Shown: one piece after another, positions 5,052 through 64,000 of the stretch
How positions within the stretch are numbered: the stretch's first letter is position 1
Layout: every line of letters starts with the position of its first letter
Assembly (NCBI RefSeq): GCF_009765785.1
Contig: NZ_LMUT01000003.1
Coordinates: 421,570 to 485,569, forward strand
DNA length: 64,000 nucleotides
Origin: Granulicella sp. L46
GTDB taxonomy: Bacteria > Acidobacteriota > Terriglobia > Terriglobales > Acidobacteriaceae
Reading direction: 5' to 3'
The notes under the pieces: model-generated
Databases searched by the model: none
The model's input: only the letters and a program-made list of their open reading frames with translations
Told to the model about the DNA's origin: nothing
Translations under genes and position numbers: made by a program

Positions 5052-6323
<1,272 letters not shown>

Positions 6324-54034: not shown

Positions 54035-55951
54035 ATGCAACGCTTGACTCAATGGGCTTCGCTTCTTTTAGTTGTCGTCGGTCTTGGTGCTGCTGCGGCA
54101 GTCTCCTCTGCGCAGGCGTCAAAAGGTGGCGAACAGCATATTGATTCGCGCGTCGACATCTATGGCGGCTACGGCTACTTCCATCCCTTCAATAGCAGCG
54201 TCGCCGGCTATGAGTTTCAGAGTGTCTACAATCCCAACGCCACCGTCGGCGTCTCCACCTGGTTCAATCGCTACTTCGGCGTTGAACTCGAGGGCGGCTA
54301 CTTCTCTGGCACCAACGAGCATAAGCAATATATTCCGTCGTGCACCGGCGAAACCTGCAGTCAACTGGTATACACCGCCGAAGGCGGTCCCATCTTCCGA
54401 TACCCGTTAGGACGCTGGGTGCCTTTCGCCCACATACTCGGCGGCGGCGAGCGCACCAATGGCCCAGCCGCTCAGTCCTTGATGTGGGGATGGGGAGTCA
54501 CCGGCGGTGTTGGTCTCGATTACGTTCTGCCCTTCTGGGGTCAGCACCTCGCCATCCGTCCCATTCAAGCCGACTATCAACGTTCCCAGGTCGTTTACGG
54601 TCCACTGCTCCTTCCTGCTGGACAGGAGGGCGGCTTCAGCTCGCTCAGCAATCTGAAACTCTCTGCCGGCCTTGTCGTTCGGATGGGCGACGTCGAACCG
54701 CCGGTGCCCGTCATGCTCGGCTGCGGCGCTCAGCCCGCGAGCGTCTTTCCTGGCGATCCCGTTAAAGTCGAAGCCAACGCCCTGCACCTGAATCCGAAGA
54801 AAACTCCGGTCTACACCTGGGCTGCCAATGGCGGCAAGATCAACGCCTCCGGCCCGGAAGCGACGATCGATACCACCGGCCTCGCACCTGGTGACTACGT
54901 CGTCACCGGACATGTAGAGGAAGGCCCCAAACCTCGCCAGCAGGCATCCTGCGCCGCGCCCTTTTCCATCCAGGCCTTCCAGGCGCCCACCCTCACCTGC
55001 AGCGCCAACCCCAGCACTGCGGTTTCCGGTACCGACATCGCCATCAGCACCGTCGGCGTCAGCCCGCAGAATCGTCCGCTCACGTATTCCTACAGCGCCA
55101 CGGCAGGCGTAATCGGAAGCTCTGGACCCACCGCAGTCCTCACCACCGCGGGCTTGAGTCCAATGACCATCACCGTCACCTGCAACCTGGTCGACGATCT
55201 CGGACAGACCGCCAAAGCGACCACCGACGTCATCATCACTGCGCCAGTCGTTACCGTCCCGCAGACTCAGCCGCTCTGCAGCCTGAGCTTCACACGCGAT
55301 CGCCGTCGGCCCGTGCGCGTCGACAACGAAGCCAAGGGCTGCCTTGACGACATCGCTCTCACGCTTTCGCAGCAGACCGACGCCCACCTCGTCATGGTCG
55401 GTAACTCGACGCCGGATGAGAAGCCCGAGGCCGCCGCAGAGCGTGCCCTCAACGCACGTCAATACCTGGTTGACGAAAAGGGTATTGATCCCACCCGCAT
55501 CGAACTCCGCGTCGGGCCACCCACCGGGATGGTCGTGACAGACACGCTGGTTCCTGCAGGCGCAACCTTCAGCGATCAAGACACCCACAAATTCGACGAA
55601 AAAACCATCATCCGTCACGGACAGGCATACGGCGTCACTCGCTCCGGGGGAACGTCGAGGCCTCGCGGAGCGGCTTTCCAAAGGCCAGCGCCTGCTCCTG
55701 CCCCTCCTGCGAACACAGCTCCGGCAACAGCGACACCCACACCAACCGCGCCGGCTGATCAACCCGCAGCACCGACCACACCCGCGGCTGCACCCGCAAC
55801 TTCTGCGCCTGGAGCACCCGCAGTGCCGGTAGCGGCTCCAGTGTCGCCTGCTGCTCTTGCTCCCGCCCCCGGATCAACCCCACCGGTGACGGCTACCCCT
55901 GAGACGCAGACAACACAGCCTGCCCCAACCAGCAGTCCGGCCCCACAGTAG
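54035..55951 (+). CDS. Outer-membrane beta-barrel protein with Ig-like repeats and OmpA-like domain
   Basis: A 638-residue exported protein. The signal peptide ends about residue 27 (SSAQA). Residues 35-230 form a beta-barrel with alternating aromatic strands (VDIYGGYGYFHPF, FGVELEGGYF, LKLSAGLVVRMGD). Residues 240-400 hold Ig/PKD-like repeats with conserved Cys (LGCGAQPASVFPGDPV, LTCSANPSTAVSGTDI). Residues 415-500 resemble an OmpA C-terminal domain (AAAERALNARQYLVDEKGI), which would bind peptidoglycan. The last 90 residues are Pro/Ala/Thr-rich. GGAGG precedes the ATG. Confidence 0.85.
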   Translation: MQRLTQWASLLLVVVGLGAAAAVSSAQASKGGEQHIDSRVDIYGGYGYFHPFNSSVAGYEFQSVYNPNATVGVSTWFNRYFGVELEGGYFSGTNEHKQYIPSCTGETCSQLVYTAEGGPIFRYPLGRWVPFAHILGGGERTNGPAAQSLMWGWGVTGGVGLDYVLPFWGQHLAIRPIQADYQRSQVVYGPLLLPAGQEGGFSSLSNLKLSAGLVVRMGDVEPPVPVMLGCGAQPASVFPGDPVKVEANALHLNPKKTPVYTWAANGGKINASGPEATIDTTGLAPGDYVVTGHVEEGPKPRQQASCAAPFSIQAFQAPTLTCSANPSTAVSGTDIAISTVGVSPQNRPLTYSYSATAGVIGSSGPTAVLTTAGLSPMTITVTCNLVDDLGQTAKATTDVIITAPVVTVPQTQPLCSLSFTRDRRRPVRVDNEAKGCLDDIALTLSQQTDAHLVMVGNSTPDEKPEAAAERALNARQYLVDEKGIDPTRIELRVGPPTGMVVTDTLVPAGATFSDQDTHKFDEKTIIRHGQAYGVTRSGGTSRPRGAAFQRPAPAPAPPANTAPATATPTPTAPADQPAAPTTPAAAPATSAPGAPAVPVAAPVSPAALAPAPGSTPPVTATPETQTTQPAPTSSPAPQ

Positions 55952-56121
55952 ACGGCATAGCAGTGGATCACAGGATCCCGGAGCGCGCCCTCCCTCCCAT
56001 CGTGGCCGCTCCCAACTTCTGCTAAAATCAAAAGGTTGGTCAGTGGTTGTTGCAGCTCATGCTGTTTCCCGGAGTTTTGCGTTCATCCACAAACGACCAG
56101 CCACTCACCTATTCCATTGTT

Positions 56122-56198
<77 letters not shown>

Positions 56199-56666
56199 TT
56201 TTTAGAATCAATGAGTTACAAGCAATCTCTCCGTGCTGAATAGTATGACCCAAGGGGTCATTTTTCGCAAGTATTTCGTGCGCAGTAGTGCGGTAGTATG
56301 GCTGACGTGAGCCGCATAGCATGGATAGCCGGACTAGTTTTCGCCTTATGCGTGTGGGGAGGCGTTGCTCTGCTATGTCTTATCGCACTTATCACGCGAC
56401 ATCACCTCAACACCTCGGGGGTGGACTGTTCTTGGGGGAAGCGTAGCTATTTGTTGGGTTACCCTCGCTTATCTCCGCACTAAAATCTCCTCCAATCTGA
56501 GGCCACTCAAGAAACGCTTTGGCACCTAATTTCAAGGTGAGGCATTGCCCGCGCGCCACATTGACACATCGGACACACGGTTTTCGCCTTATCTCTTCGA
56601 CCCCCTTTCTTATTTATTGGAGGGGTCAATCCGATAAGTTAAAACACGTGTGTCCTGTGTGTCCGT
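56199..56666. other. Stretch between tRNA-Pro and the primase gene
   Basis: About 470 bases of lower G/C content. A 61-codon open frame at 56298-56483 (plus strand) could encode a one-helix membrane peptide (IAGLVFALCVWGGVALLCLIALI) but has no clear ribosome-binding site. The minus-strand primase gene ends toward the tRNA. No integrase is present. Confidence 0.5.
56298..56483 (+). CDS. Possible small membrane peptide
   Basis: Sixty-one residues with a single hydrophobic helix at about 8-33. ATG at 56298, no Shine-Dalgarno motif. It might be a real small gene at the island edge, or chance; I give it low weight. Confidence 0.3.
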   Translation: MADVSRIAWIAGLVFALCVWGGVALLCLIALITRHHLNTSGVDCSWGKRSYLLGYPRLSPH

Positions 56667-59069
56667 TCAAGCTGCGGACGCTATCACTCCGGTGCGCGCG
56701 ACGGGAAGCGAATCGCGCAAGTGGACACCTACTAAGACGCGGACACTCTTGCCCTCAACCTTGCGGAAGGCGTACCTCTTCCCGAACCTTTTCCGCAGTT
56801 CGCTCATGATGCACCGCGCATCAGTGTCCAAGCCCTCGCGTTGCGCCCATAGGATTGCCGCCGTGCTCACATCTGCAACGGCTACGGCTTCATCAGGCGC
56901 GGGCACGAGGCAGTCTCCTTGAAACCGGGCCGCTATATCCAGCTCTGCAAACAGTTCATCCGTTGAGTCCTTCACCGTCGCTGGTTTCCGAAGCCCGTCC
57001 CGAATGACAGACGGGCACAGCGCAATCAGCTCAGCCAAGATGCCCGGCAACTCCGCGTGCAGTGTGGCGTCAATGGTCGTCTCGGGTGCTTCGCTAAAGT
57101 CCGCACGGAATGGCACCAGATGAACGCGCCCACGGAACGCAGCATCAGCAGGAAAGATGGGCTGCTCATTGGTGGTGAGGAACAGCTTCCACGTCGGCCT
57201 AATCTGCCGTGCATTTTCCCTCATGGCCGCCGCGCTCACGGTATCTCCACCACTCAAGACTTTCAGCAGCGGGAAATCTAGGTTGTCCGTCTTGGCCTCT
57301 TGGACACACACCAGCCTCGCGCCCTCCAGCGTTGAAAGAGTCCGTTTGTTCGCGTCATCTGCAAACTTGCTCTCAGCCAGCTCACGCGGACGGAGTAGGA
57401 CTGCCATGTTGCCAAGGATGCCTTCCAGTACACGGATGAATGAGCCTTTGCCATTTCTGCCGCTACCGTACAAAGCAAAAATTGCCTGCTCAGGGTGAGC
57501 TGCCAGACACAGGGCGCACAACCTCCGTAGGTACTCCGCAAGGTCACGATCCCCGCAAGCAAGCTCCATGAGGAATCGTGCCCACCTCGGAGTTGGATGG
57601 GTTGCGTCTGGTGCTATGGTCAAACTCCGTGAGATGTAATCTTCACGTTGCATCAGACGCACCGCTCCCTCACGTAGATCGGCCACCAAGCCGCCCGGCA
57701 ACCCTAGAAGATACTCATCAGTATCAAACTGCTCCCGCCGCTTCTCAGGCAAGTCCAGCCACACATAGGACGTGACACCTCCCAGCGTATCGCTTGCCTT
57801 CAGCATCCCACGCCTGTCCCGGCCTTCAACTGGAGGCGGGTACAGGGCATAGAGGTGTTTCAAGTGAGCATTGACCGCTTTGCTCAGCAGCCGCCTATCC
57901 GGACGCAGCTCCCATGCTTTCCCGGTCCATGCAGCAAGCAGCGGCGGGTTCACATCGGTAATGAGGGCAAAGTCTTGATTATCCCGGCGGAAGTCATCTC
58001 CCAAATCTGCTTGTAAAAGCGGAGGGAGTGGCCGCGTCCTCCGTACTGTTCCGAAGACAATCCCCGCGTCTTGTCCAGGTTCAGGTAGGTACGGGATGGG
58101 CTTGCGGTTGGCCATCTCTTGTTTGAACACAGTCGTTTTCCTCTCTTGCTTTTCGCATGTGTGATGCGAGCACTTGAACGCGAGCTTGCCGTTGATGATT
58201 TGCAGGATGGTGCTTGTTTCATCGCGCTCATCATGTGGCTGTGCGTCCGCCTCCGTGAGCGGGCAGAAGATGCCGATTTTCCAGCCGCCAGTGATACGCC
58301 GTGCCTCCGTCCGTGACACCAGCTCATAATGCTCCAGGTAGCCAAGCAGCCATGTCCGCGCGGCTTTGGCTTCATCGCTGGTGACCTCTTGGGGCGCTCC
58401 GTACTCAACAGTGGTCACGTCCCCAGCGATAGGTTGTAGCTGTGCCTCTGTGACCCTCCCTGAGCCTTCTGAGAGCACTGCACTAACGCGGTGTGGTCGC
58501 TCAATTGAGTGTTCGCCTTTCCGCGTCCACGTTCCCGGCAATTTGGCCACCCGCGCCGCGTTGTGGTTGGTGGTGTCCAGCATCGGATAACGCTCCGCCA
58601 GTGAGTGAAGCAGCGACCGCACCAGTCCATGCGCCGCCGCATCGTTCGGCAGGTTGAGGCGATAGCGCAAGTGGAAGCCATTGCCGCTGTCAATCACCGT
58701 AGGCACGGGCCAACCCATCGCGGTTAGCTCACCACGGCACTCTTCCGCTTGCTGGTGCGCCGCTGCTTTCTCCGTGTCCGTGCTGTTGGTGTCGGTTGGG
58801 CGCGGAGGATCAAAGTCCAGGAGCAGCCATTCACGGCGGGCAATGTGCGCGTCCGCCGCTGTCTTGTACGACCGCACCAGCTCTGCGGGGTTGATGGTGG
58901 TGTCAGCGGTCAACGCATCGGCACTGAGCGGGTTGAGGGTCGCCCACGCCGCCTTGTAGTTGCCCAGCCGCTCCACGGCGGACAGGGCGGCTGCTTCGCT
59001 GTCAAAGTAGCCAGCAAATATCCCTGTTTCCGTCTTGCTCCGTACCTCATGCGTCCCTGCAAAATTCAT
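56667..59069 (-). CDS. Primase-polymerase/SF3 helicase (P4-alpha-type replication protein)
   Basis: An 800-residue phage/satellite-type protein. The N-terminal 210 residues look like an archaeo-eukaryotic primase: DFD (85-87) with SGNGFHLRY (128-136) and Asp165 before NAARVAKLPGT. A zinc-binding FCP...CSHHTC set is at about 269-305. The C-terminal half is a D5-like superfamily 3 helicase with Walker A GSGRNGKGS (535-543), and the segment KLFLTTNEQPIF is the SF3 motif C. It would initiate replication of the element. It overlaps the upstream gene by four bases and follows the excisionase-like gene, so all three form one operon. Confidence 0.9.
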   Translation of the reverse strand: MNFAGTHEVRSKTETGIFAGYFDSEAAALSAVERLGNYKAAWATLNPLSADALTADTTINPAELVRSYKTAADAHIARREWLLLDFDPPRPTDTNSTDTEKAAAHQQAEECRGELTAMGWPVPTVIDSGNGFHLRYRLNLPNDAAAHGLVRSLLHSLAERYPMLDTTNHNAARVAKLPGTWTRKGEHSIERPHRVSAVLSEGSGRVTEAQLQPIAGDVTTVEYGAPQEVTSDEAKAARTWLLGYLEHYELVSRTEARRITGGWKIGIFCPLTEADAQPHDERDETSTILQIINGKLAFKCSHHTCEKQERKTTVFKQEMANRKPIPYLPEPGQDAGIVFGTVRRTRPLPPLLQADLGDDFRRDNQDFALITDVNPPLLAAWTGKAWELRPDRRLLSKAVNAHLKHLYALYPPPVEGRDRRGMLKASDTLGGVTSYVWLDLPEKRREQFDTDEYLLGLPGGLVADLREGAVRLMQREDYISRSLTIAPDATHPTPRWARFLMELACGDRDLAEYLRRLCALCLAAHPEQAIFALYGSGRNGKGSFIRVLEGILGNMAVLLRPRELAESKFADDANKRTLSTLEGARLVCVQEAKTDNLDFPLLKVLSGGDTVSAAAMRENARQIRPTWKLFLTTNEQPIFPADAAFRGRVHLVPFRADFSEAPETTIDATLHAELPGILAELIALCPSVIRDGLRKPATVKDSTDELFAELDIAARFQGDCLVPAPDEAVAVADVSTAAILWAQREGLDTDARCIMSELRKRFGKRYAFRKVEGKSVRVLVGVHLRDSLPVARTGVIASAA

Positions 59070-59542
59070 CCTGCCACCTCAAAGAGTTCGGCTTGTGCGG
59101 GCCGAACTGACCGCGCTGCTTTCTTCATTACCTGTGTGGGTGCGTCTGTGAGTGGCCGCCCGTCACGCCACTCCAGCCGCCGCGCATAGTCACCCGGCAG
59201 TTTCTTTTCAGAGACGCGCATCCCCAATGCCTCATCCAAGGGCACCGAGTTGAGTTGCACCATTCCGTTCAAATCGGGATGTGCATACAGCAGCGCGCGG
59301 CCCATCAGCGGCACAAGGTCATTGCTCATGCGTATGCGGATGTCCCAACGCAAACGCTCAAAAGCCTCACGCACTGAGGCGGCGCGATTGTTTGTCTCAA
59401 GCCTGGAGTACACCAGCTGAGCCAGTTGTTCAGTGAGTCCAGCGTGATGGTGCGTGAGTTGGCTGAAGTCAAGCAGCAACCGCGCTTGCTTCACTCCGGT
59501 TGGCGTGCCCATGCGGATGAGGTCATCTGTGGTTCGCATCAT
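59066..59542 (-). CDS. Hypothetical protein of the primase operon
   Basis: A 158-residue protein. The ATG at 59542 overlaps the stop codon of the upstream HTH gene (ATGA) and has GAGGTG eight bases before it; a longer upstream start is unlikely. Residues include DLIRMGTPTGVKQARLLLDFSQLTH and FERLRWDIRIRMSNDLVPLM, mostly helical; no family recognised. It lies between the excisionase-like gene and the primase with overlaps on both sides, so it probably serves replication or packaging of the element. Confidence 0.75.
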   Translation of the reverse strand: MMRTTDDLIRMGTPTGVKQARLLLDFSQLTHHHAGLTEQLAQLVYSRLETNNRAASVREAFERLRWDIRIRMSNDLVPLMGRALLYAHPDLNGMVQLNSVPLDEALGMRVSEKKLPGDYARRLEWRDGRPLTDAPTQVMKKAARSVRPAQAELFEVAG

Positions 59543-59742
59543 TTCACCTCCGTCTGTGAGGCAAGCAGCCACCCGGCTACTGCTTGCGGGTTGAAGCGGA
59601 TGCGCCCGCCTAAGCGCAGATGAGGTATCCGGTTTTCTCGCGCCATCCGCGCAATGGTCTTTCTGTCCAGCCCAAGCAATCGCGCCAAGCGTGATCCGCT
59701 CAGCAATCCAGGCTGATGTGCAACTGTCTGAATGATGTCCAT
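59539..59742 (-). CDS. Excisionase-like helix-turn-helix protein
   Basis: A 67-residue protein. GSRLARLLGLDRKTIARMARENRIPHLRLGGRIRFNPQAVAGWL is the AlpA/excisionase winged-helix pattern: a turn-helix, then IPHLRLGGRIRF strands and a final helix. ATG at 59742 is chosen because AAAGGA lies five bases before it. It should bind DNA near an attachment site, origin or its own promoter; the repeat array upstream is an obvious candidate. First gene of the primase operon. Confidence 0.88.
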   Translation of the reverse strand: MDIIQTVAHQPGLLSGSRLARLLGLDRKTIARMARENRIPHLRLGGRIRFNPQAVAGWLLASQTEVK

Positions 59743-60319
59743 GTGTTCCTTTCTTGTGGGATTCACCATGTTTGGAATGAATCACCCTACATATAGCGCC
59801 TTTTATGGCTTATGTGGTTGAATGCATTACACTTATCTAGTACGCAACGCACTCCAATTCACCCCATCGCGGAGCAATTGGCCCTACATATAGGGGGTTT
59901 TGAGGCTTATATCATTGATTCCATGAATCTTACCCTCGCAGCAAAATTCCGCTGTTCGCTTCATTGAACCAATTGGCCCTACATATAGGGTGGTAAGCCT
60001 TGTAAGTTGTTGATTCCATTGAAAACGCTCACGGTGGAACCCCCGTCGTACGCCCCATTGGACCAACAGCGCCTACACTATATGCGTTTCTGGCATGATG
60101 TGATTGATTGCGAAGCACTTAGGCGCACAGCGATACATTGCAGCGCGGTTGACGCAATGAGCATCTATGGAATCAACGTAACGACAATAGAATGAATTAC
60201 ATAGGGGGTGGGTAATAATGTTGCCAATACACCATCCATAGAGCTCCGCCATCCACAAATAACGGCACACAAACAATTCTGAGAATGTGGACGATTTACC
60301 ACACTTTGGGACGCTCTGA
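59743..60319. other. Non-coding region of the island with a repeat array
   Basis: About 580 bases with no gene that I can support. It contains the four-site array described separately (59785-60083) and then A/T-rich sequence. It lies directly upstream of the excisionase-like/primase operon. Confidence 0.7.
59785..60130. repeat. Array of four related sites with about 95-base spacing
   Basis: The core CCCTACATATAG occurs at 59785, 59882 and 59977, with a degenerate form GCCTACACTATATG at about 60071. Spacings are 97, 95 and about 95 bases. CCCTA and TAGGG form an inverted repeat around CATA in copies two and three. Similarity continues for about 40 bases (TTTTxxxGGCTTATxx then TTGATTCCAT) and extends about 6 bases upstream (AATTGG). 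It is probably an iteron-like origin or an operator array. Confidence 0.75.
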
Positions 60320-60592
60320 CTACAGGTGAGAATCGTTCGAGTGGTCCAGGCAGACGATGCCGAACCGACCACCGGGAAGCTCCTCAACCGTGAAGCTGCA
60401 AATGTGGAAGCCGAGTTTGACGAGTGCCCCATTCAGATACGCGCATTCATACTGAGCTTCCATGCGCGAAGGCCAAGTGTGAGTTGGTGAGCCGCTATAT
60501 TCAACTTGCAGATCGCCCGCGACTTGCTTGGTAGAGCCGTCCTGGTTCGCCACCTCGGTCATGTTTGAATATCGGTGCAAATACGCTTTCAT
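60320..60592 (-). CDS. Small hypothetical protein
   Basis: A 90-residue protein with no recognised family. It has a polar N-terminus, a PTHTWPSRMEAQYECAYLNGAL segment and a beta-like C-terminus (HICSFTVEELPGGRFGIVCLDHS). The ATG at 60592 has only a distant GAGG before it. It is read toward the array and the primase operon from the opposite side of the 60788 gene. Plausible island gene, function unknown. Confidence 0.55.
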   Translation of the reverse strand: MKAYLHRYSNMTEVANQDGSTKQVAGDLQVEYSGSPTHTWPSRMEAQYECAYLNGALVKLGFHICSFTVEELPGGRFGIVCLDHSNDSHL

Positions 60593-60731
60593 GCTGCCAT
60601 AGTACCTCGCGCGTCAAGCCGACACCTGCGCGCATGTGGATGGCCCACCAACGCGCCCACGTGCCCGTGGCGGCACCGTGCAGCGGAGTTGACCTAGTGC
60701 AGAGGGGCTTTTTGCCTAGGACCAATCCCAC

Positions 60732-60770
60732 CTTTGTTCGGAATTTGGGTGCTATGCTTTTCGAACAAAG
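60732..60770. promoter_or_regulatory. Inverted repeat, probable operator
   Basis: CTTTGTTCG (60732-60740) and CGAACAAAG (60762-60770) form a perfect nine-bp inverted repeat separated by 21 bases. The spacer contains TATGCT, which could be a -10 box. It lies 18 bases before the ATG at 60788 and just before the ribosome-binding site, a good place for an autoregulator. Confidence 0.6.
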
Positions 60771-60787
60771 CTGAGGAGGCCAACGCT

Positions 60788-61222
60788 ATGCGACCAAACG
60801 CTCCAGAGTATTCCGAAAGCGAGGTAGCTATCCTGATTTACCTCTTCAACCACCCCGATGAAACACACTCAACCCAGAGTTTGACGACCGTGGTGGAGGA
60901 ACCAACGCTCCAACAAAAGGTCGCGCGACTACAGGTAATGTTGGGTTTTCTCGGGACAGGAAGAACTGAATCCGAAAGAAGCGAGACTTCAGATGTCAAA
61001 CCGACGCGCAACATTGAGGAGGTTGAGAAGGACGTTGAGAATCTAATCGCGGGCGGCCTAGTCCGTGGCAAGCGCAAGGGCGCACTGGGCAATATCACGT
61101 ACGCAGAAATAAAGTTGACCTACAAAGGCGAACAACAAGCAATCATGGCAAAGAAACGGTTCGCTGAATTGGATAGCGTACTAAAAGCGGCGAACTTACG
61201 AGCGGCGAATTTTCCATCCTGA
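60788..61222 (+). CDS. Hypothetical winged-helix-like protein
   Basis: A 144-residue protein of the island. ATG 60788 follows GAGGAGG by about nine bases. ESEVAILIYLFNHPDETHSTQSLTTVV looks like the first helices of a winged-helix DNA-binding domain, and VEKDVENLIAGGLVRGKRKGALGNITYAEIKLTYKGEQQAIM like the recognition helix and wing. An inverted repeat in front suggests that it represses its own gene. This is a pattern-based reading; no known family. Confidence 0.65.
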   Translation: MRPNAPEYSESEVAILIYLFNHPDETHSTQSLTTVVEEPTLQQKVARLQVMLGFLGTGRTESERSETSDVKPTRNIEEVEKDVENLIAGGLVRGKRKGALGNITYAEIKLTYKGEQQAIMAKKRFAELDSVLKAANLRAANFPS

Positions 61223-61232
61223 ATTACGAAAA

Positions 61233-61391
61233 TCAAGTCCGCTCAACACGACTCTCCACACGGTCCTGCCTCACCTTGCTCCACTTGGCATAGCTATACT
61301 CCGTCGTGGCGTGCTTGCCGCACCCACTTAGTCTGTTCTGTTTCACAAACATCATTTGGTCAGCCGCCGCATAAAGGCTGGTGGGTTTCAC
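61233..61391 (-). CDS. Small 52-residue protein coupled to the MltR-like gene
   Basis: A short frame from GTG 61391 to TGA 61233. Its GTG overlaps the stop codon of the MltR-like gene by four bases (GTGA), the usual sign of translational coupling. The peptide has a Lys/Arg/Tyr-rich core, VKQNRLSGCGKHATTEYSYA, then KWSKVRQDRVESR, basic enough to bind nucleic acid. No family recognised. It ends 10 bases from the convergent 60788 gene. Confidence 0.5.
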   Translation of the reverse strand: MKPTSLYAAADQMMFVKQNRLSGCGKHATTEYSYAKWSKVRQDRVESRVERT

Positions 61392-61975
61392 GGCATAGGT
61401 TCGGGGTATTCCTCAGTCCACCACTTTCGCACTTTATAAATGGGCGTTCGCTTCGGTGTCGCATACCTAGGTGTCTGAATGGCTCTTTCCCGGAGTATCA
61501 GGAATAGTCCGATAGCACAGAAAGTGAACTGGTCTTTCGGTGTGCGCTCAGATTCAGGCGTTTGTGGAATTCCGGGCCAGTAGACAACGGTGAGGCTCCT
61601 GCATAGTTGCGCCACGGGCAAGTTGTCGAAAGTGATCTGTCTGTGACAATGAGCGAAGTCATTCCTGATTGCCTTGATCGTGTCGAGGTCATGACGAGTT
61701 TTGGGGCCAATGATTCGCATCGCCTCTGCCATCCGGATTTTGCTCGCAAAAGTGGCAAGGGGACCACCTAAGCCGGTTAGTTCAGCGTCCGCCTGCCCCT
61801 TGTTTCTCCACAACCGGCTCAGCAGAGATTCTGTGAGAGAAAGCTCAACCAACGCCGAAGCCCTGAGTGCTACTGAAGGGTCATCTTTGCTTTCAAGGAG
61901 TGCATCAACAATGCCTTTGATCTCACTGCTTTCTAGTTCTGACTTTAGGAAAGCCTTCCACTCAGTCTTGGTCAT
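61388..61975 (-). CDS. MltR-like protein
   Basis: A 195-residue protein resembling the mannitol operon repressor MltR family. The hallmark is GPLATFASKIRMAEAMRIIG with KTRHDLDTIKAIRNDFAHC (about 80-118), matching the MltR core GPLxxFSxRIxLAxxLGLI...DLxxIRxIRNxFAH. MltR relatives occur widely in islands without mannitol genes, so a direct role in mannitol control is unlikely here. AGGAG precedes the ATG. It lies 28 bases after the Rap1a-like gene. Confidence 0.8.
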   Translation of the reverse strand: MTKTEWKAFLKSELESSEIKGIVDALLESKDDPSVALRASALVELSLTESLLSRLWRNKGQADAELTGLGGPLATFASKIRMAEAMRIIGPKTRHDLDTIKAIRNDFAHCHRQITFDNLPVAQLCRSLTVVYWPGIPQTPESERTPKDQFTFCAIGLFLILRERAIQTPRYATPKRTPIYKVRKWWTEEYPEPMP

Positions 61976-62003
61976 CGAACGCTCCTAATCCTGAGCATCA
62001 TCC

Positions 62004-62366
62004 TCATTGGCCACACGGATATGCGGACTGTAGAGCTTGCAACACAAAGAATCCCGCCGCACGATGTAGTTTTTCTGGATGGTCCTCGCCATATTTGACA
62101 ACCACCAAAACCAGCTCCTTGCGGGTCGCTGCCGTCGGTATACAGGCAGGAAAATCGTCTGGGTGAGTGTGTGTCGCAAACGTTGCGCCATCAACCACCC
62201 CCATAACGAATCCGATGCACGTACCGGCGTCGATCTCGTCGACCGACACCTTTGTTCCGGCTTCTGTGACGTTTTTGCACATATTTACTAACGCTTCTCC
62301 AGATTCGAGATAGATAGTGTTGGGCTTCGAAAGAACCATGGCGGCAGCCAGCAGAGGGATGAGCAT
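62004..62366 (-). CDS. Rap1a/Tai-like exported protein
   Basis: A 120-residue protein. A hydrophobic start (MLIPLLAAAMVLS) suggests export. The mature part fits the Rap1a/Tai immunity fold: SGEALVNMCKN, AGTCIGFVMGVVDGATFA, ACIPTAATRKELVLVVVKYGEDHPEKL and FFVLQALQSAYPC. Four Cys (about 30, 50, 75, 118) would form two disulfides. In Serratia, Rap proteins protect from type VI amidase toxins; no toxin gene is seen here, so this is an orphan homologue. No clear ribosome-binding site. Confidence 0.8.
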   Translation of the reverse strand: MLIPLLAAAMVLSKPNTIYLESGEALVNMCKNVTEAGTKVSVDEIDAGTCIGFVMGVVDGATFATHTHPDDFPACIPTAATRKELVLVVVKYGEDHPEKLHRAAGFFVLQALQSAYPCGQ

Positions 62367-62618
62367 GGTCGCTAGTTTCGCACATGAAGGGGTGGTGCGG
62401 GCACCAATCTTACCGCTACCAGCAACTGCCAGCCCGACGACTGGAGTGCTTATGACGCGCTGATGGTTCGCTTTTGCTTCGATCTATCGCTTGTCAGAAG
62501 CAACGCCTAGCTAAGCGTGGTCATTCCAGCAAAACCGGGTTATCGGCAAGTTCGCGCGCGCAGTTTTTATACCCAACTAGTAACGATGAGCTTGACCAAG
62601 ATCGAAAGCCTCTGAAGT

Positions 62619-63587
62619 TCAAGGCGTTACTTGCAATCTCACCCACCCAAGAGAGGCGTCCGCGTTTCTCAAACACAAATACGGCCTATCAGCGTTTCCG
62701 CCGCTGCCCTTTTCCACGTAAATGGTGCCCCTGGTCGTAATCGTGCAAGCCGGTTTTGGTGCAATGGAAGCGTCTTGGAATCCGACAGGGGACACGCTGG
62801 CGATTGGCATCACATCCCCGTTGGGACTTCTCTGTGAAAAAAACACAAACGGCCGGGATGCTGACTTCTCTGCGCATAGCGCTATCGAGTGATTTGCATT
62901 CAGAGTTGATGGCCCACAACCTAGGTTCCCCAACATAAGGGATGACGGCCACGCTATTCCATTCTCGTCGGTGCCGGATGACTCGAAAGAGCCCGCCTTG
63001 AATTTCTTATTGCCGATGTCTACGACCTGTCCCTGCACCGCAGTAAGTTGCTTCTGTAAGAGTTCAACTTTTTCATCGATTCGGCTATATCGTTCCAAAT
63101 TCGACTGGAGCCGCGCGTACTGCTGCACTATCTGGCTGGATGAAGCTTGTAGCCCAGAGACTTGACCCTCAGCGGACTGCACATGCGATTGGAGAGTGGC
63201 GAGTTGCGCTGAGACAGCCGAGTCCTTACTAACTGCCGCTTGAGACACATCTTGCACCTTGGTCGTCGCTTCAGCGACCTTAGCGGTGAAGTCGCTATAG
63301 CTGTGGAACCCCAACACTCCGAGGATAATCACAAGAACAGCCAAAGGGATTGCAGCCCAATAGAGGAAAAGCTTGAACCAGTCCGTGAGTTTGCTCGCGA
63401 CGTCAACCGATGTCTTCATGGTGACGTAATCCCGGTCCTTAAATCTGGACTCCAAAGCTTCGTTAATCAAAGCCACGATCCGGAAGGAGTCATTATTGAG
63501 AGGGGCACCACAGTTCGCGCAAAAAGCTTTGCCGGGTATAGTGGGCTCTTTGCATCCTGGGCACGGATTGCTACTCGGTTCGCTCAT
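62619..63587 (-). CDS. Zinc-ribbon membrane protein with coiled coil
   Basis: A 322-residue protein. An N-terminal zinc ribbon CPGC...CANC (about 9-27) is followed by a helix at about 74-97 (FLYWAAIPLAVLVIILGVLGF), a long coiled coil (about 105-195, with VSKDSAVSAQLATLQSHV and LQSNLERYSRIDEKVELLQ) and a C-terminal domain with GTIYVEKGSGG and PYLCLRNADASLGWVRL, a motif seen in phage-related surface proteins. ATG 63587 has GGAG nine bases upstream. The topology puts the zinc ribbon inside and the coiled coil outside. Function unknown. Confidence 0.75.
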   Translation of the reverse strand: MSEPSSNPCPGCKEPTIPGKAFCANCGAPLNNDSFRIVALINEALESRFKDRDYVTMKTSVDVASKLTDWFKLFLYWAAIPLAVLVIILGVLGFHSYSDFTAKVAEATTKVQDVSQAAVSKDSAVSAQLATLQSHVQSAEGQVSGLQASSSQIVQQYARLQSNLERYSRIDEKVELLQKQLTAVQGQVVDIGNKKFKAGSFESSGTDENGIAWPSSLMLGNLGCGPSTLNANHSIALCAEKSASRPFVFFSQRSPNGDVMPIASVSPVGFQDASIAPKPACTITTRGTIYVEKGSGGNADRPYLCLRNADASLGWVRLQVTP

Positions 63588-63686
63588 AGTTTGAGTCTCC
63601 ATCATGTGACATCTCACTCTATCAACGCGCGGGCGCGTGAGGGCAACGAATAGCGAATAACGTCAGGCGCGCGCTACGCTAGGGGC

Positions 63687-64000
63687 ATGGGTTATTGGAA
63701 ACGATTCGGAGCGGTGCTTTGGCGGGATGCAATGCTGTGGGTGCGCGATAACATCCTGTGGGCGGTGGTGGTCTTGGTTGTACCGCCTGCTGCAGTCTAT
63801 TTTCATGACCCCAACCACTCTATCGATTGGTCGCTCATCCGCACAACACTATGGCTATACGTTGCTGCATTCGTTATGTATGCCATCTACCAAAGCGCGC
63901 ACGCCGCTGTGACGCTAGATGCAGAGCGATACGCGCATGTTCTAGAGGCCGAACGTAGAGCCACAGAGGCAGAAGCCCTGAATACACGTCCGAAGATTGT
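63687..64000 (+). CDS. Membrane protein, 3' end cut by window
   Basis: An open frame from ATG 63687 to the window end (104 codons seen). AGGGG lies just before the ATG. Two hydrophobic helices are at about 26-42 (ILWAVVVLVVPPAAVYF) and 58-76 (TTLWLYVAAFVMYAIYQ), followed by an acidic-basic helical stretch with ALDAERYAHVLEAERRATEAEA that looks like a coiled coil. Read away from the zinc-ribbon gene, divergently. No family recognised. Confidence 0.65.
   Translation, partial: MGYWKRFGAVLWRDAMLWVRDNILWAVVVLVVPPAAVYFHDPNHSIDWSLIRTTLWLYVAAFVMYAIYQSAHAAVTLDAERYAHVLEAERRATEAEALNTRPKI

Follow-up and report, generated by a model that had tools for sequence, protein, structure and literature searches.

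The locus considered here raises the question of what function is served by four related DNA sites that are repeated in the same direction in front of a replication operon of Granulicella sp. L46. The window, that is, the whole stretch of 64,000 nucleotides analyzed, corresponds to positions 421570-485569 of a 744 kb contig from a 5.48 Mb genome, and includes most of a small integrated element whose early operon encodes, on the minus strand, a helix-turn-helix (HTH) protein, a protein named P0001 and a primase-helicase. The array of sites occupies the 5' leader of this operon. In a first-pass annotation it had been suggested to serve as origin, partition site or operator array, a run of small structured RNAs being another option. 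Sequence comparisons indicate that the array is real and forms a cis region specific to the element, and the role as operator (control) array for the early operon gave the best fit of these options and is favored over all the rivals considered, with a probability that nevertheless falls somewhat short of even.

The exact 12-mer core CCCTACATATAG was found at positions 59785, 59882 and 59977, and a variant longer by two bases, GCCTACACTATATG, at 60071, so that the three exact cores and the degenerate one described in the first-pass annotation are all present; by arithmetic, about 0.008 exact matches to such a 12-mer are expected by chance per 64 kb on both strands. The spacing of the cores along the array is 97, 95 and 94 nt, which maintains the regular period that had been described and corrects its range of 95-97. 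Unit 1 (59778-59828, plus strand, as are the other units) carries TTGAATGCAT at offset +33 from the core, units 2 (59875-59925) and 3 (59970-60020) have CAATTGG before the core and TTGATTCCAT at +33, and unit 4 (60064-60114) has TTGATTGCGA at the same offset, TTGA being present at +33 in all four units. The units can be aligned above chance outside the core, as the self-alignment suggested in the first-pass annotation was meant to reveal: mean pairwise identity was 0.53 at offsets +14 to +46 versus 0.30 in shuffled sequences (none of 5000 as high), 0.38 versus 0.27 at +46 to +76 (5 of 5000) and 0.54 versus 0.29 at -14 to -1 (1 of 5000). The inverted repeat CCCTA..TAGGG, previously attributed to the units in general, is exact in units 2 and 3 only. 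The core itself is asymmetric, CAATTGNCCCTACA(CT)TATA. The four direct units are separated by unique spacers and flanked on one side only by an AT-rich block; directly beyond unit 4 the accessory motif appears inverted as GAATCAAC (60170-60177, plus strand). The block (60190-60276), which is 74% identical to positions 5952-6035 of the locus L067 described below, may contain the minus-strand promoter of the operon.

Conservation and specificity of the core were analyzed in a set of 398 family genomes. The closest primase, 77% identical over nearly its full length, is encoded in genome G618 (locus L067), and the next best matches were 46, 44 and 42% identical. The G618 element, of 4.67 kb and located in a tRNA-Val gene, apparently consists of just an integrase, a P0001 homolog (70% identical) and the primase, and no HTH gene was found in it by tblastn. 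Its leader of 628 nt contains cores at L067 positions 5606, 5676, 5773 and 5854, two of them strong, one a longer variant like that of unit 4 and one degenerate, the last being recognized mainly by the DNA after it, a repeat (48 nt, 90%) of that of the fourth unit. These units are also similar to each other at offsets +14 to +46 (identity 0.37 versus 0.24 in shuffled sequences, none of 5000 as high), with no identity beyond shuffles at +46 to +60, and the CCCTA..TAGGG palindrome is exact in none of the four. The spacing is 70, 97 and 81 nt, so that neither the even period nor the suggested nine or so helical turns between sites are preserved in the relative, and the idea of a helical phase was rejected or downgraded. 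The two-base insertion CCTACACTATAT occurs once per array, at 60071 and at L067 5606, which are opposite array ends.

The array takes up the leader in front of co-directional genes in both elements and was not detected elsewhere. The 17-mer core AATTGNCCCTACATATA has four sites in two of the 398 genomes, every one within the two arrays, and its reversed-pattern control had none among the matches listed for the family genomes; a scoring-matrix scan of both elements revealed no site of comparable strength outside the arrays. An excess of direct repeats was found in two of 11 hand-picked upstream intervals, some of which contain coding sequence or end at a contig end, and these two are the leaders described (0 of 300 shuffles each). 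No such excess was present in the examined upstream stretches of five islands with more distant primases or at three loci with distant P0001-like genes. The prediction in the first-pass annotation that the repeats accompany related primase operons is therefore borne out by the nearest island, but not by the examined stretches of the five more distant ones.

A second cis module was found at the other end of the operon. The primase-helicase (56667-59069, minus strand, 800 aa) contains D5_N and DUF5906 domains and an N-terminus that, from its motifs, we take to be of the archaeo-eukaryotic primase type. At its stop codon, the inverted 9-nt arms CGGACACAC (56570-56578) and GTGTGTCCG (56657-56665) enclose a 78-nt loop of 44% GC, the whole module spanning 56570-56665. 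Arms as long were obtained in 3 of 100 shuffles, so the evidence from this single locus is modest and the weight rests on the set of loci. Of the eight loci inspected, seven have a 3' module of this kind, with arms of 9-16 nt that differ in sequence and loops of 78-96 nt, the locus of G251 lacking it. In a wider set that includes five of these eight, arms of 9 nt or longer, equaled in no more than 3 of 60 shuffles, were present at 22 of 39 related loci; these 39 were drawn from 53 candidates, 3 being skipped as the stop codon was outside the locus and 11 being lost as their match stopped short of the C-terminal part of the primase. Loops of some of the 22 positive loci (L009, L048 and L056) are not AT-rich, and across L008-L063 the arm sequences differ per lineage. 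The replication origin thus probably sits at the 3' end of the primase gene, with 56570-56665 as the candidate.

The C-terminal part of the primase seems to have been swapped between proteins that are otherwise 80-99% identical. Protein P0003 is 81-99% identical to the primase of this element per 80-residue window up to residue 720 and 29% identical over residues 735-795, a region in which the G618 primase (taken to be protein P0036 from its contig of 140084 bp) is 34% identical versus 77% overall. This exchange is as expected if the C-terminus sets origin specificity. The two array-bearing elements differ in their 3' iterons and primase C-termini and share the array core, and therefore the primase C-terminus is an unlikely binder of the array; neither is the iteron sequence GGACAC found in 59743-60319, nor GGTTAC in the array of the relative. 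The HTH protein, another binder envisaged in the first-pass annotation, is also weakened because the 77% identical relative keeps its array without an HTH gene.

A control array is favored because of its position in the leader, its independence of both the primase C-terminus and the HTH gene, and the existence of the 3' module. The long leader of the HTH-P0001-primase early operon would then be a multi-site protein-binding region, in which each unit is a composite site formed by the asymmetric core and a second motif 33 bp, or some three helical turns, away. A factor encoded by the element might bind these sites cooperatively and set the strength of the operon switch-on, and thereby of excision and replication. 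The leading candidate for this factor is P0001, from the same operon; protein binding, the identity of the binder and transcription control as the outcome are all inferred. The strongest evidence for an origin-type role is the low-stability DNA next to both arrays, for which the points above do not account.

P0001 (59066-59542, minus strand, 158 aa) has no Pfam family, a weak match to phrog_13625 and a C-terminal tail, ending in QAELFEVAG, that is predicted to be disordered. The pattern Q..[LFM]F, which was picked after viewing the alignment, lies within the last 25 residues of 77 of the 81 P0001-like proteins found in databases, which are not independent of each other, versus 0.45% of shuffled sequences. 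This tail resembles, at the level of sequence, the motifs that bind the sliding clamp, although, compared with the clamp consensus Q-aliphatic-x-[LM]-[FL], Gly or Ala predominates at position 2. Matches to P0001 were found in 5 of 397 genomes, one at 70% and four weak, and close homologs only in the two array-bearing elements. For 17 of the 54 primase clusters found in databases, a comparison by hand revealed a P0001-like cluster whose longest contig has the same length, suggestive of a fixed gene pair. Database relatives of both proteins are named Acidobacteriaceae or Terracidiphilus, in keeping with the Acidobacteriota of the first-pass annotation, and one member of the P0001 family (P0133) keeps both ends with an unrelated-looking middle. 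In addition, L158 and L159 are apparent prophages with a related integrase, in which a P0001-like gene directly follows a tape-measure-like gene, a name given here to a gene with no family match.

The rival that survives best, possible though unlikely, is that the array acts in cis as a second site of replication on which P0001 assembles, its QxxLF tail recruiting the host sliding clamp or polymerase. The conserved tail, predicted to be disordered, is in line with this, as are the weak phage relatives TM4 gp63 and Quesadilla gp53, located in mycobacteriophage replication gene clusters, and the low-stability DNA beside both arrays. Nevertheless, P0001 has no clear DNA-binding fold, two Acidobacteriota prophages carry a P0001-like gene without the QxxLF tail behind a long tape-measure-like gene, and Gly or Ala at motif position 2 lowers clamp affinity, according to the portion of a review available (PMC11139829). 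A combined arrangement, in which an exchangeable 3' origin matches the primase C-terminus and a fixed array is the place where P0001 assembles as a clamp-binding adaptor, coupling the early operon or the replication fork to the host sliding clamp, would be distinctly unlikely.

Improbable to a further degree is the first option of the first-pass annotation, in which the array would be the main origin and its cores iterons bound by the primase, in the manner of P4 ori and crr (cis replication region). The direct-repeat array does adjoin the primase operon, the least stable 60 bp of the G618 element lie beside the array at L067 6013, and the second least stable 60 bp of the element studied here are at 60163. 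This reading is disfavored because the family has the 3' inverted-iteron module (seven of eight and 22 of 39 loci, as given above) and the array lacks those iterons; moreover, the primase C-termini differ though the cores agree, and the five more distant primases have no upstream array in the stretches examined.

The integration of the element has a bearing on another proposal. The attachment site is a tRNA-Pro(CGG) gene predicted by ARAGORN (56122-56198, plus strand). A perfect 79-nt repeat joins positions 56123-56201 to 65498-65576, the second copy lying beyond the window, as revealed by blastn of the adjoining contig stretches, and this recurrence of the tRNA-Pro copy delimits an integrated element of about 9.4 kb, which appears to be a small phage-satellite-like element. 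The accessory motif GAATCAA occurs four times in this element (1.2 expected) and three times in its relative (0.6 expected), once in each just inside the left attachment site (56205 and L067 2363) and otherwise in the array, so that in both elements a link to integration is possible. That this motif, and the array with it, serves to control integration and excision as a target of the integrase or of a directionality factor is however a poor prospect, as roughly 1 kb or more separates the array from the attachment sites, a long distance for arm sites of an integrase, and the core was not found near the attachment sites in the scoring-matrix scan.

The leader could also act as RNA, either as four repeated small RNAs or as an attenuator, a proposal for which the RNA-based leader of P4 immunity is a precedent. 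The minus strand of unit 1, in the HTH leader (59770-59866), folds far better than its shuffled sequences (z -4.5, 0 of 200), and promoter-like sequence noticed by eye in 60190-60276 would transcribe the array. The other seven of the eight unit folds gave z values between -1.6 and +0.8, the eight units yielded no consensus structure, no Rfam match but the tRNA was obtained at E<=1 in 55900-64000, no terminator-like site was found, and sigma-70 promoters are not in excess within the units. With the strong fold of unit 1 as the exception, the small structured RNAs of the first-pass annotation are therefore unsupported, and this reading is very improbable. Least probable of all is that the array is a packaging or partition site whose source was a helper phage or plasmid: packaging sites of helpers are frequent in satellites and repeated sites suit either role, but the core is nowhere else in its own genome or in other family genomes, nor in the examined prophage stretches, and viral contigs contained no spaced pairs.

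The remaining features of the element agree with the gene context that had been described. From left to right the order is primase-helicase, P0001, HTH_17 protein, array, conserved block, cargo genes and integrase, the latter a tyrosine integrase (PF00589) just outside the window. The HTH_17 or AlpA-like protein (PF12728; 59539-59769, minus strand, 76 aa as open reading frame) has 'excisionase and transcriptional regulator' as best PHROG and, with the D5_N/DUF5906 primase-helicase, makes up this context. By eye, translation more probably starts at 59742, behind GAAAGGAACAC, than at the beginning of the open reading frame, which would place unit 1 at 43 bp from the probable start. Among the cargo genes, 62004-62366 encodes a Rap1a immunity domain (PF18602, E 3.5e-19), and a zinc-ribbon coiled-coil protein of L158 resembles that at 62619-63617. 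A small element in L160 (3176-6992) is located at the same type of site, a tRNA-Pro CGG gene beside cysND; its integrase is related, its P0001-like gene is a distant one, and a helicase-like ATPase takes the place of the primase.

As a control array, these sites would be a defined, element-specific DNA target before an early operon, with a candidate binder encoded in the same operon. The 3' module is a clear origin candidate, which makes control and replication separable experimentally. If true, the swapping of C-termini and 3' iterons with a constant array would change origin specificity without rewiring control.

In phage P4, one protein binds the same iterons at ori and crr. Unlike P4 crr, the array shares no iterons with the 3' module, and a crr-like site was rejected or downgraded as the array is devoid of the 3' iterons. 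The likeness to P4, a system also named in PMC6092414, consists in a P4-family primase, a small satellite and cis sites outside the primase gene. Origins of phage-inducible chromosomal islands (PICIs) are described, in the portions of the sources available, as two iteron sets that flank an AT-rich region immediately 3' of rep, Rep using its C-terminal domain to bind (PMC6092414, PMC7581432). In the archaeal plasmid pRN1, an inverted repeat or stem-loop of about 100 bp is located 3' of the gene for a primase-SF3 helicase-winged-helix protein, and the available text mentions no counterpart of the upstream array (PMC4234260). The module at 56570-56665 has this layout, with inverted iterons and an AT-rich loop directly 3' of the primase gene, matching that of PICI origins as outlined there. 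The upstream array departs from an origin of the PICI or Staphylococcus aureus pathogenicity island type, as it lies 5' of the operon, the other module being 3', and is built of direct composite units of different sequence.

The early regulon alpA-up1-prim of the phage-inducible chromosomal minimalist islands (PICMIs), satellites of Vibrionaceae, is activated by an unknown factor, and the activation of early genes of small satellites by helper phages is given as an open question in the accessible part of that paper (PMC10803314), which does not mention an upstream site array. The element described here differs from what is set out there in having a host outside Vibrionaceae, an insertion at tRNA-Pro instead of beside fis, an integrase at the end opposite to the early operon and a 4.7 kb relative without the HTH gene. 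It has in common with PICMIs, as portrayed in the same text, a small size and the joint presence of a tyrosine integrase, an AlpA-type HTH protein (PF12728) and a DUF5906 primase, and P0001 occupies the place between alpA and prim where PICMIs often have a gene of unknown function.
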